DNA from: Geothrix oryzae
GTDB lineage: Bacteria > Acidobacteriota > Holophagae > Holophagales > Holophagaceae
Direction of reading: 5' to 3'
DNA length: 64,000 nucleotides
NCBI RefSeq assembly: GCF_030295385.1
Contig: NZ_AP027079.1
Location: 2,542,001 to 2,606,000 of the forward strand
A program made the position numbers and the translations under genes. The notes under the pieces are model-generated. The model had not been told where the DNA came from, made no database searches, and saw nothing but the letters and a program-made list of their open reading frames with translations. Of this stretch, positions 23,078-43,163 are shown piece by piece; the first letter of the stretch is position 1, and every line of letters begins with the position of its first letter.

Positions 23078-23683
23078 ATGCCGAACCCCCTGCGAACCAA
23101 GAACCTTCTGGGCTCAAGCCTTGTGGCCAGCCTGGTTATCCCCCTGCTGGCCTGTCTGGGCGGGGGCGGGGGGAGCGCGTCCGCCCAGCGGTCCGGCCCC
23201 GTGCCGCTGCAGATGAGCGTCGCGAGTCTGAGCATCCCGGCGGGGGGCGGGGGCTTCGTTGCCGTGACGGCCACCCGGCCGCTGGCCCACTACCTGAACT
23301 ACCAGGGCCCCCTGACCCTCTCGCTGGACCACCCCCCCGCCGGGGTGCGGGGCAGCGGCAGCATCCCCGCCGACCAGTCCACGGGCACCCTGTCGCTCTG
23401 GGTGGACCCCTCGGTGGCCCCCCGGACGATCCAGGGCCTCCAAGTGCTGGCCACGGGCGGGAGCACGGTCTCCGTGGCCACCTTCGACCTGACCATCGCG
23501 CCGCCCCTGCCCCCGGGCCGCATCCGCTCCGACCTGGTGCAGGCCAGCGGGCGCGTGCAGCAGGCGGGAACCCTGACGAACGCCCCCCTGGTCCAGGAGC
23601 CCGTCGCCGCCACCACCGCCACGGATGCCGCCAAGGTGGACGCCGTGCGCCATGGCTTCGACCCTTCGACCCAGGCCCCCTGA
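23078..23683 (+). CDS. Hypothetical secreted lipoprotein
   Basis: The 201-residue protein starts with a basic N-terminus, a hydrophobic core and LLAC ([14 protein letters not shown]), a lipobox, so it is probably a lipoprotein anchored by Cys at about residue 26. A flexible Gly-rich linker follows, then beta-rich sequence such as [20 protein letters not shown] and [20 protein letters not shown] that could be an Ig-like fold. The family is not recognised. It ends about 70 bp before the collagen-like gene on the same strand, so the two may be co-transcribed and work together at the cell surface. Confidence 0.65.
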
Positions 23684-23756
23684 TTCAGGCCCAGCCCAGC
23701 CTTCAAGGCCCCGTCCACGGGCCTCGTCCTTCCTCCACCCTTCTTCGAGAGAACCC

Positions 23757-25508
23757 ATGCGCTTTCGCCCCACCCTCCTGACCTTGACCCTGATCAGCCT
23801 GTCCCCCGGCCTGAGCGCGCAGGTGGCGCCCGCGGCCCCGGTGGTCGAGGCCGCGCCCAACCCCCAGGTGGCCTACCAGGGCCGCCTGAGCGAGGCCGGG
23901 CTGCCGGTGACCGGCACGCGGAGCTTCACCTTTTCGATCCTGGATGCCCAGGGGACTGAACTCTGGACCTCGGGCCCCCAGGATGTCTCGGTGAACAACG
24001 GCCTCTACGCGGTGGCGCTGGGCGGCTCGGGCATGCCCGCCATTCCCCCGGCCGTGCTGGCCAAGGCGAACCTGCGGCTGCGCCTGTCCATCAACGGGGC
24101 GCCGCTGACGCCGGACACGGACCTGGTGCCGGCCCTGCAGGCGCGCAGCGCCTTCGACTTCTCCGGCGCCCTCGCCGGGGATGTGGGCGGTACCCAGAAC
24201 GCGACGGTGGTGCTCCGCCTCCACGGGGTGCCCCTGGATCCGACGGCCACCCCCACGGCGGGCCAGGCCCTGGTCTTCAACGGCTCGAGCTGGGCCCCCT
24301 CGACGGTGGTCGGGGTGCCCGGTCCCGTGGGCCCCCAGGGCGCCACCGGACCCGCCGGCCCTCTCGGGGCCACGGGTCCGCAGGGCCCCATGGGCCTGCC
24401 CGGCGCCACGGGCCCCCAGGGCACCCCGGGTGCCACCGGTGCCACCGGGGCCCAGGGCCTCCCCGGCACCGCCGGCAGGACCGTCCTCAGCGGCATCACC
24501 CTGCCCGCGGCCAATCAGGGCGTGGACGGCGACTTCTACCTCAATACCGCCACCAGCGTGCTCTACGGCCCCAAGGGGGCCCTCACGGCCGGAGCCTGGC
24601 CCGCCGCCGGCACCAGCCTGGTGGGCCCGGCCGGAGCCCCCGGCCCCCAGGGACCCACGGGTCTGACCGGCGCCACCGGGGCCACGGGACTGACCGGGCC
24701 CGCCGGACCGCAGGGGCCCATGGGCCTGATGGGCGCCACCGGCGCCACGGGCGCGACGGGGCCCCAAGGCGCCACCGGCCCCCAGGGCGCGACGGGGCCG
24801 CAGGGCCTCGCCGGGCCCCAGGGTCTGACCGGCGCCACCGGGGCGACGGGACCGCAAGGCGCCACGGGCCCGCAGGGCCTCGCCGGGCCCCAGGGCCTGA
24901 CCGGCGCCACCGGCGCGACCGGGGCGGCGGCCACCATCAGCGTGGGGACCACCACCACGGGCGCGGCGGGCTCGTCCGCCTCGGTCACCAATTCGGGTAC
25001 CGCCAGCGCCGCGGTGCTGAACTTCACCATCCCCCAGGGCGCGGCGGGCTCCGGGGCCGCGGGCCTGCAGGTGCTGGACAACACCAATGCCGTGCTGGGC
25101 AAGGTGACCCGCGCCGACAGCTACGGGTACACCGTCCTGACCTCCACCGGCTACCTGCTGGACCTGTCCTGGGATGGCACCGCCTATCCCGCCCAGGCCT
25201 GGTTCACGACCTTCTCCGGCGGCGTGTGCAGCGGCACGGTCTACCTGAATGACGGCGGCGGCGGCGCGGGCGGCCTCAAGATCTGGGGCAAGACGGCCTA
25301 CTGGGTGGGGTCCAAGAACAGCTTCATGGTCCCGCAGGATGTCAACGGCTCGGGCATGAGCATCTCGGTCTCCTTCACCAGCCAGGGCATCGACAATCCC
25401 ACCTGCGGCGCCGGCGGCGGCACCAACAGCGGCTGGCGCCTGACCACCATCACCAACGCGGCCCTGGGCCTGCCGGCGACCATCGCGGCCCCCCTGAAGC
25501 TGCAGTAG
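23757..25508 (+). CDS. Secreted collagen-like (Gly-X-Y) protein
   Basis: The ATG at 23757 gives 583 residues with a signal peptide ([13 protein letters not shown]). Residues 30-180 form a beta domain starting [20 protein letters not shown]. This type of domain is often seen on bacterial surface proteins with tail-fibre-like repeats. Two collagen tracts follow: about 186-240 and 290-390, with triplets such as [10 protein letters not shown] and [10 protein letters not shown]. Between them is a 50-residue insert ([17 protein letters not shown]). A C-terminal globular beta domain of about 180 residues ([15 protein letters not shown] ...) follows. It should form a trimeric triple-helical rod at the surface. 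Binding partner unknown. Confidence 0.85.
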
Positions 25509-25539
25509 GCCAGTCCCGGGGCCCTGCGAGGAAAACCCG

Positions 25540-25586
25540 TTGACAGGAATCCAATCCGAAACCACCATGGTTACGGATTGGATTCC
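25540..25586 (+). promoter_or_regulatory. Perfect 13-bp inverted repeat operator in front of Rrf2 gene
   Basis: GGAATCCAATCCG (25546-25558) and CGGATTGGATTCC (25574-25586) are perfect inverted copies 15 bases apart. The spacer adds AACCA/TGGTT, so about 41 bp is nearly symmetrical. A TTGACA (25540-25545) sits at the left edge. The right arm ends two bases before the start codon and covers the place of the ribosome binding site. Autorepression by the Rrf2 protein is likely; an RNA hairpin effect is the alternative. Confidence 0.75.
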
Positions 25587-25588
25587 CC

Positions 25589-26011
25589 ATGAGCAACACC
25601 CGCTACACCGTCGCCATCCATGTGCTCACCCTGCTGGCCTACGCCGGTCCCGAGGCGCTCACCTCCGACTACATCGCCGGCAGCGTGAACACCAACCCCG
25701 TGGTCATCCGCCGCATCCTGGCCCGCCTGCGGGCGGCCCGGCTGGTGCGGTCCCAGGGTGGCCCCGGGGGCGGCTGGCAGCTGCTCCAGGCGCCGGAAGC
25801 CATCCACCTCCAGCAGGTGCTGGCGGCCATGGGGGTGGATGCCGCCTTCCCCCTGCACGCGGCGGCCCCCAATGTGCAGTGTCCCGTGGGCCGCTCCATC
25901 CAGGGGCTGCTCACCCACCACTTCCGCCTCGCCCAGGAAGCCCTGGAGCGGCAGCTGGCGGGCGTCACCCTCGCCGATCTGGTGGCGGGCGTGAAGGCCC
26001 AGCCCGCCTGA
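25589..26011 (+). CDS. Rrf2-family transcriptional regulator (single-Cys, YwnA-like)
   Basis: The 140-residue protein has the Rrf2 winged helix: TRYTVAIHVLTLLAY, TSDYIAGSVNTNPVVIRRILARLRAARLV and the wing GGPGGGWQLL. It lacks the three-cysteine cluster of Fe-S Rrf2 proteins and has one cysteine, C98 in NVQCPVG. This suggests thiol-based sensing of disulfide, quinone or electrophile stress, as in YwnA/HypR-like members. It is followed 54 bp later by an NmrA/QorB-type oxidoreductase, which it probably controls. The ligand is inference. Confidence 0.9.
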   Translation: MSNTRYTVAIHVLTLLAYAGPEALTSDYIAGSVNTNPVVIRRILARLRAARLVRSQGGPGGGWQLLQAPEAIHLQQVLAAMGVDAAFPLHAAAPNVQCPVGRSIQGLLTHHFRLAQEALERQLAGVTLADLVAGVKAQPA

Positions 26012-26029
26012 CTTTTTTTGCCCTTATCC

Positions 26030-26046
26030 GCAACCATTCCGGTTGC
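26030..26046 (+). promoter_or_regulatory. Small palindrome upstream of the NmrA-type oxidoreductase
   Basis: GCAACC / GGTTGC (26030-26035 and 26041-26046) with a 5-base centre lies 20 bp before the start codon at 26066. Preceded by ATCCG, it resembles half of the Rrf2 palindrome upstream (ATCCGnAACCA...GGTT), which suggests the same regulator binds both sites. Confidence 0.45.
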
Positions 26047-26065
26047 ACTTTCTCCAGGAGATCCC

Positions 26066-26956
26066 ATGACCCCCCACCCCCTCACCAGCCCTCTCACCGG
26101 CCCCATCGTCGTCACTGGCGCCACCGGCCAGCTGGGCCGCCTCGTGCTGGCCTCCCTCCTGAAGCAGGTGCCCGCCGCCCAGCTGGTGGCCGCCGTGCGC
26201 AGCCCCGAGAAGGCCCAGGATCTGGCCGCCCAGGGCATCCAGGTGCGCAAGGCCGACTATGACCGACCGGACACGCTGGTCGAGGCCTTCCGCGGCGCCG
26301 GGAAGGTGCTGCTCATCTCCTCGAACGAGATCGGCCAGAGGTTCGCCCAGCACCGCGCCGCCGTGGACGCGGCCCGGAAGGCCGGGGTGCCGCTCCTGGC
26401 CTACACGAGCCTGCTCCGCGCCGACACCTCGCCCCTGCCCCTGGCGCTCGAACACCGGGAGACGGAAGCCTACCTGAAGGCCTCGGGTCTGCCCTTCGTG
26501 CTGCTGCGGAACGGCTGGTACACGGAGAACTATGCGGCCAGCATCCCATCGGCCCTGCAGCACGGGGCGTTCCTGGGCAGCGCGGGCGAAGGGAAGATCG
26601 CCTCGGCCGCCCGCGCCGACTACGCCGAGGCCGCCGCCGCCGTGCTGCTGCGCGACGGCCAGGCGGGCCAGGTCCACGAGCTGGCGGGCGACACGGCCTA
26701 CACCCTGCGCGAGCTGACCGCGGAGCTCAGCCGCCAGTCGGGCAAGGCCGTGGCCTACCAGAACCTGCCCGAAGCGGAGTTCAAGGCCATCCTCCTGGGC
26801 GCCGGGCTGCCCGAAGCCATCGCCAGCCTGCTGGCGGAATCCGACACCGGCGCCGCGAAGGGTGGCCTCTTCGACGATTCCCGCACCCTGCGCCGCCTCA
26901 TCGGCCGTCCCACCACGCCCATGGCGGACACCGTCGGCGCCGCGCTGCGGGGCTGA
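26066..26956 (+). CDS. NAD(P)H-binding NmrA/QorB-type oxidoreductase
   Basis: The 296-residue protein opens with the Rossmann motif VVTGATGQLGRLVLASLL (about residues 15-32). It continues like quinone oxidoreductase 2 (QorB/YtfG): DYDRPDTLVEAFRGAGKVLLIS, LLAYTSLLRADTSPLPLALEHRETE and LLRNGWYTENYA. These proteins reduce quinones with NADPH. The ATG at 26066 has CAGGAG eight bases upstream. Together with the Rrf2 regulator it forms a likely quinone/electrophile stress unit, a pairing inferred from position. Confidence 0.88.
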   Translation: MTPHPLTSPLTGPIVVTGATGQLGRLVLASLLKQVPAAQLVAAVRSPEKAQDLAAQGIQVRKADYDRPDTLVEAFRGAGKVLLISSNEIGQRFAQHRAAVDAARKAGVPLLAYTSLLRADTSPLPLALEHRETEAYLKASGLPFVLLRNGWYTENYAASIPSALQHGAFLGSAGEGKIASAARADYAEAAAAVLLRDGQAGQVHELAGDTAYTLRELTAELSRQSGKAVAYQNLPEAEFKAILLGAGLPEAIASLLAESDTGAAKGGLFDDSRTLRRLIGRPTTPMADTVGAALRG

Positions 26957-27070: not shown

Positions 27071-27526
27071 ATGCCCACGACCTTGCTGAAGGATTTCCTC
27101 TCCCAGAACCGGGTGGCCCACCAGGTCATCCAACATCCGGTGGCCTTCACGGCCACTTCGGTCGCCGGGGCCGCGCACATTTCCGGCAAGGAGATGGCCA
27201 AGACGGTGGTGGTGAACCTGGACGGGCGCCTGGTCCTGGCCGTGGTGCCGGCCAACCGGAAGGTGGACCTGGAGCGCCTGCGCCAGGCCGCCGGGGCCAT
27301 CCGCGCCGAGCTGGCCGACGAGCGCGAGTTCATCGCCGACTTCCCGGAATGCGAACCCGGGGCCATGCCGCCCTTCGGGAACCTCTACGGCATGCCGGTC
27401 TTCGTGGAGCCGCACCTGGCGGCCGACAAGGAGATCGCCTTCAACGCCGGGACGCACACCGAGCTGATCCGCATGTCCTACCAGGACTTCGAGCGCCTGA
27501 CGCACCCGAAGCTCGTGGACATGTAG
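27071..27526 (+). CDS. YbaK/ProX-type aminoacyl-tRNA deacylase
   Basis: The 151-residue protein is a single YbaK domain: VIQHPVAFTATSVAGAAHI, KTVVVNLDGRLVLAVVPANRKVD with the conserved Lys, and FGNLYGMPVFVEPHLA. Such enzymes hydrolyse mischarged tRNAs such as Cys- or Ala-tRNA(Pro). The ATG at 27071 follows GGAGG. It is a single gene 114 bp after the oxidoreductase and ends in a hairpin. Precise tRNA specificity cannot be inferred. Confidence 0.85.
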   Translation: MPTTLLKDFLSQNRVAHQVIQHPVAFTATSVAGAAHISGKEMAKTVVVNLDGRLVLAVVPANRKVDLERLRQAAGAIRAELADEREFIADFPECEPGAMPPFGNLYGMPVFVEPHLAADKEIAFNAGTHTELIRMSYQDFERLTHPKLVDM

Positions 27527-43022: not shown

Positions 43023-43163
43023 GGCAATCCCAGGTCAAAGGCTGGGCCGGACCGACCCCGTGCAGGGGTTGGTCCGGCCCACCGTTGCAGTGTCGAGTTT
43101 TAAATACAAGTAAATATTTATTAACAATTACAACAAGCAATCCAAGATTTGGATAAAAGGGGG

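Follow-up and report, generated by a model that had tools for sequence, protein, structure and literature searches.

An Rrf2-type regulator gene (rrf2) and a quinone oxidoreductase gene (qorB) adjoin each other on the + strand within a 64-kb stretch of the Geothrix oryzae genome (64,000 nt, hereafter the window), and a palindrome stands in front of each gene. The locus raises the question of how one regulator would use two such sites, the first at the start of the presumed operon and the second inside it, between the genes of the regulator and the enzyme.

A single-cysteine Rrf2 regulator beside qorB

The rrf2 gene (nt 25589–26011, + strand) encoded a protein of 140 aa, predicted to be a SifR/YwnA-type regulator. 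A preliminary description of this DNA had named it a single-Cys Rrf2 protein, and this was confirmed by a match to the Rrf2 domain (PF02082, 9e-30) and by the presence of only one cysteine, C98, located in QCPVG, the CPV position at the start of helix 5. Its nearest solved relatives were 1ylf (3.3e-21) and Bacillus subtilis YwnA (1xd7, 8e-21); C98 aligned with the Cys of CPVG in YwnA, and the Cys triad that holds an Fe-S cluster was lacking. A single Cys was found in 57 of 130 homologues and the motif C[PA][VIL]G in 104 of them. The score against HypR (NCBIfam NF041852) was 49.8 bits, below the curated equivalog cut-off of 180, and that against IscR was 31.9 bits, below the cut-off of 207.55, with one Cys versus the three cluster-binding Cys of IscR. 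Assignment of the protein as a monothiol Rrf2 regulator of the SifR/YwnA kind is thus largely supported by sequence comparison. The closest rrf2 locus among the matches listed was that of the metagenome-assembled genome Geothrix sp. BP11 (95% rrf2 identity), and distribution within the genus was patchy, the regulator being carried by 9 of 47 genomes at an E value of 1e-15 or better.

The qorB gene (nt 26066–26956, + strand) encoded a predicted NmrA/QorB-type NAD(P)H quinone oxidoreductase of 296 aa (PF05368/PF13460), which over residues 14–291, nearly its full length, matched E. coli YtfG, also named QorB (2zcu, E 2.7e-105); the QorB-like reductase reported beside the regulator was therefore correctly recognised. 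Both the gene order rrf2-qorB and the two operators were conserved in relatives, the order rrf2-operator-qorB being shared by 38 loci (duplicate locus copies left out) that range from Geothrix and Holophagaceae to Myxococcota and Paenibacillus. The flanking genes were a collagen-like gene with GXX repeats (nt 23625–25508), on the same strand just 5′ of the rrf2 locus and likewise present in four other Geothrix loci, and an aminoacyl-tRNA editing-domain gene (YbaK-like, PF04073; nt 27071–27526) 3′ of qorB.

SifR of S. pneumoniae is the founding Rrf2 monothiol quinone sensor. Quinones are reported to react with its C102, the residue aligned to the CPV Cys of YwnA, and the adduct frees the protein from DNA (PMC9218516). 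The operator of SifR is TGTAA-N9-TTACA and its target the YwnB quinone reductase; ywnA and ywnB are neighbours in many genomes, although S. pneumoniae is an exception (PMC9218516). The thiol- or quinone-responsive switch that had been suggested thus has a close precedent.

The O1 and O2 dyads

O1 is a full palindrome of 41 bp (nt 25546–25586, + strand), whose arms (nt 25546–25564 and 25568–25586) are complementary at 18 out of 19 positions and enclose a loop of 3 nt. The 13-bp perfect outer arms (nt 25546–25558 and 25574–25586) and the inner AACCA/TGGTT were as first noted, and its earlier ranking as one of the strongest palindromes was, if anything, cautious: O1 was the top dyad of its shape (19 + 19, loop 0–8) in the 64-kb window, and when the window was dinucleotide-shuffled 100 times, 18/19 pairing was never attained, the maximum being 17, in 4 shuffles. 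The runner-up of the window was a dyad at nt 43041–43083 with 17 of 19 arm positions paired and a 5-nt loop.

The operator core of O1, CGAAACC-ACCAT-GGTTACG (nt 25557–25575, + strand), has the register of TGTAA-N9-TTACA and overlaps promoter P1. The -35 hexamer of P1, TTGACA (nt 25540–25545, + strand), as read from the sequence, abuts the palindrome, and the -10 hexamer, CACCAT (nt 25563–25568, + strand), lies inside it after a 17-bp spacer. A weighted logo of 116 O1 sites placed TTGACA at -17 to -12 from the operator core, with a 6/6 match within one base of this place in 78 sites, and a TATAAT-like hexamer at +7 to +12, 73 of the 116 O1 centres matching TATAAT at 5 or 6 positions. The window CACCAT aligned with the TATAAT of relatives, its own match being weak (3/6), and a consensus promoter scan of the window reported no promoter, so that P1 was missed as well. 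Homologues carried at the O1 slot sequences resembling TGTAAC-TATAAT-GGTTACA with TTGACA at the equal position, and the O1 core was conserved in homologues from several phyla. Given these hexamer positions in the homologues, O1 is most likely an autorepressor operator that overlies P1 and covers its -10 hexamer.

The second site, O2 (CGCAACCATTCCGGTTGCA, nt 26029–26047, + strand), lies between rrf2 and qorB. Its presence before the next gene had been noticed; it had been called half of the same pattern, a reading that has to be amended, since O2 is a full dyad, GCAACC-N5-GGTTGC, and lacks only the outer arms. Searched with no mismatch, TCCGNAACC-N5-GGTTNC occurred exactly at O1 and O2 in the genome of 3,265,981 bases (O1 being listed on both strands). 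The shorter AACC-N5-GGTT was rejected as an operator pattern, since its 28 sites per strand compared with 19 in the control and it is therefore not specific; the genomic context of 19 of the 28 sites, besides O1 and O2, revealed no regulon. When up to 2 mismatches were allowed, TCCGNAACC-N5-GGTTNC gave 57 + 51 matches versus 74 + 69 in the control, so matches beyond the exact sites were taken as noise. Three Rfam candidates in nt 25400–26200 were also rejected, all being below the gathering score and implausible. By hand count, the half-sites of the window, CGAAA..TTACG and CGCAA..TTGCA, agreed with 7 of the 10 bases of SifR TGTAA/TTACA in the same register, and operators of relatives graded into exact TGTAA-N9-TTACA.

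The outer arms behaved differently from the cores. The left arm of O1 lies in the promoter spacer and the right arm in the leader just before rrf2, and among the acidobacterial relatives compared the arms were a feature of Geothrix; two loci from other Holophagaceae (L042 and L109) matched at only 3 and 6 of 13 positions. Long arms of other sequence, unlike those of Geothrix, occurred in the near-perfect O1 dyads of L099 (Anaerocolumna; 37 bp) and L102 (Paenibacillus; 35 bp). Thus, of the proposal that the 41-bp pattern is a common operator, the core dyads were borne out, both being kept in relatives, and the outer arms were not, being absent from O2 and from most homologues. Since O2 in these Geothrix genomes has no arms, Rrf2 probably does not need those of O1. 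A second operator dimer on the arms was considered and set aside, as they are species-variable and, by eye, unlike TGTAA.

Across 8 Geothrix loci the arms differed between species yet stayed complementary within most of them: within a locus the left arm matched the right at 10.9 of 13 positions, versus 8.3 of 13 for pairs taken across loci, with a permutation P of 2.5e-4 (8 loci), or 0.003 with one locus per clade (n = 6), in a permutation that ignores descent. This co-variation may reflect template-switch (quasipalindrome) copying during replication, by which the arms would be kept complementary and would not be read by Rrf2. Template switching is able to create and keep such stems (PMC8794818); apart from the higher pairing within loci, the lack of such arms at O2 in these genomes speaks for it, as does the position of the left arm, which, lying within the promoter spacer, should not be transcribed from P1. 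Two of the loci fit it less well, L011 and L013 pairing at only 4 and 9 of 13 positions in the common register, with L011 better at a 1-nt offset by eye. Moreover, same-strand genes end just 5′ of O1 in at least five loci, so a role in RNA is possible, and selection for an RNA hairpin, masking the ribosome site of rrf2 when transcription reads through, is a candidate alternative. Copying by template switch seems to us an even bet.

The T-tract before O2

A run of seven T residues (T7, nt 26013–26019, + strand), which is proposed here as a stall or release element, precedes O2 at a distance of 9 bp that is nearly fixed across phyla. To count such arrangements, rrf2 loci were gathered by protein search alone, identical rrf2 genes were counted once, two paralogues from the genome itself (L006 and L007) were left out, and one locus with less than 200 nt downstream was dropped. 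Among the matches listed there were 129 distinct genes, and in 91 of them an operator scoring ≥17 followed no more than 240 nt past the rrf2 stop, versus 7 of 385 background windows. An unbroken run of at least six T lay within 30 bp upstream of O2 in 48 of the 91, and in all 48 the gap was 8 to 11 bp (8 bp once, 9 bp in 37 loci, 10 bp in 6, 11 bp in 4). Assigned by record title or searched group, the 48 loci fell into four phyla: Acidobacteriota (17 loci, 10 of them Geothrix/Holophagaceae and 7 from elsewhere in the phylum), Bacillota (17), Myxococcota (9) and Bacteroidota (5). Other runs near the 91 O2 sites were rare (A upstream in 3, T downstream in 1, A downstream in 3).

With a looser definition, at least 6 T among the 8 positions -17 to -10, the tract was present at 71/91 O2 sites versus 3/116 O1 sites; a mirror A-tract was seen at 6/91 O2 sites, and 20/91 had no T-tract so defined. 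The gene following the 71 tract-bearing sites was qorB-like in 41 loci and not in the other 30. Since O2 starts anywhere from 17 to 236 nt after the rrf2 stop, the tract keeps its place relative to O2 rather than to the end of rrf2; being one-sided and rare at O1, it is probably related to the direction of transcription. Its polarity fits that direction and is probably not explained by a symmetric dimer. A general contact of Rrf2 with the tract was set aside on the same low counts for O1 and for the mirror A-tract. No operator above threshold (score ≥17, 240 nt) followed rrf2 in 38/129 loci, with at least one near miss, L095, in which T7 and a 9-bp gap were present. A conserved element of T-tract, 9 bp and operator is well supported by these counts.

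Some loci departed from this layout. In five Acidobacteriota (L015, L020, L049, L051 and L052), A5-7T3-5 took the place of T7 before O2, a sequence compatible with a weak hybrid and equally with a role in DNA structure. Two further acidobacterial homologues (L031 and L035) had a different O1 half-site, GTGTAT/ATACAC-like, and after rrf2 a T5-6 run separated by 9–11 bp from a stretch with TGTAC, which would suit a composite retained with altered specificity. L045/L154 carried two tandem operator-like dyads between rrf2 and qorB and no T-tract, and at L280 in one genome (G189) T7, 9 bp and TGTAACATTGATTGTTAC were found on a contig other than that of its rrf2 homologue.

On the model suggested by the preliminary description, a single Rrf2 switch responding to thiols or quinones would act through two plain promoter operators, and no further feature would be involved. 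This agrees with the SifR precedent (PMC9218516), with the identity of QorB and with the occurrence of only two exact sites in the genome; however, it leaves the conserved T-tract composite unexplained and is, in our judgement, very improbable. O2 does not look like a promoter operator, TTGACA being matched at ≥4 positions in 3/91 O2 sites and TATAAT at ≥5 positions in 5/91 and at 4 positions in a further 18; rather, it appears to be part of a T-tract composite inside the transcription unit.

The composite was not confined to sites beside rrf2. When 104 genomes from the family of Paenibacillus cremeus were scanned, the pattern TTTTTTTN{0,30}TGTAACN7GTTACA gave 27 listed matches, reduced by hand to 21 sites, and the reversed control gave none. 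The gap was 8–10 in 17 of the 21 sites; of the other four, one had a gap of 18, and in three a -35 of the TTGA type stood within the gap. Twelve of the 17 were directly behind an rrf2 match, and each of the five that were not had an O1-type promoter 91–196 nt upstream. Considering all loci with no rrf2 in between (L213, L215, L216, L198, L214, L172 and L228), the T-tract started 78–196 nt after the O1-type -35 and O2 followed it by 8–10 bp. In L213, L215 and L216 a DsbA-like and a YwnB-like gene, named by eye from translations, came next; the leaders of L213 and L215 held, by eye, a six-codon ORF, MAAEVN/MAAEVS. In L228, from a genome of the phylum of Anaeromyxobacter, T8, 9 bp and O2 were intact, and the stretch from O1 to T8 looks like the start of an rrf2 gene joined to the end of one. 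DNA looping between O1 and O2 was set aside, as the two sites are 472 bp apart here, but only 78–196 nt separate promoter and T-tract at the loci lacking an intervening rrf2.

The gaps were also compared over a pooled set of loci that included 30 from 261 genomes of the order of Kurthia zopfii (a scan with 45 matches, many of them O1 promoters), 13 sites with TTGAC between T-run and operator being dropped. In this set a gap of 7–11 was seen at every one of the 57 T6+/operator sites located downstream of an O1 promoter or of rrf2. The other 31 were scattered except for nine at gap 7, eight of these being promoters with a TATAAT centre. Looser patterns gave no overall excess, with 17 matches listed versus 22 in the reversed control for the phylum of Anaeromyxobacter (195 genomes) and 47 versus 47 for Acidobacteriota (297 genomes, read by eye), the controls being counted by hand; in these two scans only the gap, 9, or 11 in two Geothrix, marked the sites beside rrf2.

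These data bear on the possibility that O2 is the operator of a weak second promoter, P2, for qorB, with the T-tract standing in for a -35 or acting like an UP element, and the hairpin described below being an unrelated rrf2 terminator. It is common for a regulator and its enzyme to have promoters that are repressed individually, the T-tract at -17 to -10 occupies the slot that TTGACA has at O1, and the right half of O2 in Paenibacillus is often TTATAAC, which could serve as a -10. However, the -35 and -10 consensus is mostly missing at O2, the promoter scan found nothing in the window (P1 included), and the right half in Geothrix and Myxococcota is TTGCA/TTACG-like and not TTATAAC; P2 would also seem redundant where T-tract and O2 stand 78–196 nt behind a good O1 promoter even with no rrf2 between. 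We consider P2 unlikely.

A possible RNA hairpin, GGCGGGC..GCCCGCC (nt 25984–26008, + strand), with a 7-bp stem and an 11-nt loop, was located at the end of rrf2, 4 nt before T7. Anchored at the tract, it had a predicted -17.2 kcal/mol, a value reached by 1 of 12 shuffles; a strict terminator scan of the window reported no terminator at T7. In a survey of 47 of the 57 sites, kept for their distinct upstream 14-mers, an anchored hairpin of -5 kcal/mol or better was predicted at 30 and none better than -3 at 11, so the hairpin is common and not universal; the mean, -6.8 kcal/mol, was little better than that of shuffled sequences (-5.3). The hairpins at these 30 sites would suit a plain roadblock, in which Rrf2 at O2 blocks elongation, Mfd or Rho releases the polymerase, and the T-run is the tail of an ordinary rrf2 intrinsic terminator. 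Repressor roadblocking is established (PMC10310618), and for LacI about 90% of release is attributed to Mfd (PMC4132739). Left unexplained would be the hairpin-less sites and a T-run that stays about 9 bp from O2 although the interval between stop codon and O2 ranges from 17 to 236 nt, and a plain roadblock likewise appears unlikely to us.

A possible repressor-gated terminator and comparison with known systems

By sequence, an O1-type promoter or rrf2 lies upstream of the T-tract and O2, and the operator is thus inside the predicted transcribed region. The site 15 bp before the O2 core is nt 26014, within T7. Yeast Reb1 stops RNA polymerase I 15 bp before its own site (PMC12366685); by analogy, a polymerase from P1 stopped about 15 bp before O2 would have its RNA 3′ end in T7. 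We propose that Rrf2 at O2, together with T7, may form a repressor-gated terminator within a two-gate quinone/thiol-stress switch, a proposal that we hold with about half confidence. Its general form, that in at least four phyla T7-8 stands about 9 bp before an in-operon operator at which bound repressor stalls polymerase over the weakest RNA-DNA hybrid possible and ejects it until an inducer opens the terminator, has a slightly less than even prospect of being correct. The sequence itself shows the gene identities, both operators, the overlap of O1 with a promoter and the conserved composite within the transcription unit; DNA binding, inducer, stalling and release at T7–O2 are what we infer.

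At the first gate, a reduced Rrf2 dimer on O1 would cover the P1 -10 hexamer and limit initiation of rrf2-qorB. Polymerases that escape would transcribe rrf2, so some repressor would always be made. At the second gate, another Rrf2 dimer on O2 would halt the polymerase with the RNA 3′ end within T7, where the weak rU:dA hybrid, aided by the hairpin where one is present, would let it fall off before qorB. An electrophile would modify C98 and cause Rrf2 to leave both O1 and O2; with Rrf2 gone, initiation would rise, the terminator would open and QorB would be made. A gate behind rrf2 and before qorB would preserve basal synthesis of the repressor and silence the enzyme.

Several observations weigh against reading T7 and O2 as a terminator. 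In yeast, a roadblock and T-rich tract gave no RNA release by Pol I in the absence of a hairpin (PMC12366685), and here 11 of 47 sites had no predicted hairpin better than -3 kcal/mol. The T-tract was lacking at 20/91 O2 sites and an operator above threshold at 38/129 rrf2 loci, and the two phylum-wide loose scans showed no overall excess over the reversed control. Furthermore, the tract fills the slot of the -35 at O1, so a -35-like role is possible, and the half-sites of the window share only 7 of 10 bases with SifR TGTAA/TTACA.

In the usual view of roadblock repression, the blocked polymerase has to be released by Mfd or Rho; a precisely spaced, conserved T-tract would make the repressor itself part of the terminator, with one ligand controlling both initiation and termination. 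If so, the arrangement would allow an autorepressor to be made at a basal level while its enzyme stays off. It would also define a pattern by which similar sites of other repressors could be sought, and a compact element from which tight synthetic switches could be built. The open-licence literature searched, covered in part, yielded neither a T-tract/operator composite for Rrf2 nor a repressor-gated terminator in bacteria, which is weak evidence of absence.

Among known systems, SifR/YwnA is similar in having the Rrf2 fold, one CPV Cys, a dyad with the register TGTAA-N9-TTACA, and an NAD(P)H quinone reductase as neighbour or target. It differs in that the window locus is acidobacterial, has CGNAA half-sites and has QorB in place of YwnB as partner; nor do the available sections on SifR mention a T-tract/O2 gate (PMC9218516). 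The class was described there for Firmicutes and a few Actinobacteria, and the present loci would extend it as quinone sensors to Acidobacteriota, Myxococcota and Bacteroidota. RsrR-NmrA of Streptomyces venezuelae likewise has an Rrf2 gene beside an NmrA-type gene, both controlled through full-dyad sites, whereas RsrR carries a [2Fe-2S] cluster, has divergent genes and binds 11-3-11 sites (PMC5015018), compared with one Cys and a co-directional operon here. Unlike E. coli QorB (YtfG), the window qorB adjoins an Rrf2 regulator gene.

With regard to the second gate, the roadblocks of CcpA, CodY, PurR and LacI resemble it in that a repressor within the transcribed region stops elongation, but LacI release is chiefly by Mfd and no positioned T-tract is described in the accessible portions of these reports (PMC10310618, PMC4132739). 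The yeast RNA polymerase I terminator (Reb1/Nsi1) is similar in combining a DNA-bound protein, a T-rich tract before it and a hairpin upstream; roadblock, tract and RNA hairpin act together and RNA is not released without the hairpin (PMC12366685). That system is eukaryotic and constitutive, uses an unrelated protein and requires the hairpin, which is not universal here, so the likeness is one of analogy only. If the proposal is correct, T7 and O2 would represent a bacterial counterpart of the RNA polymerase I Reb1/T-rich terminator.
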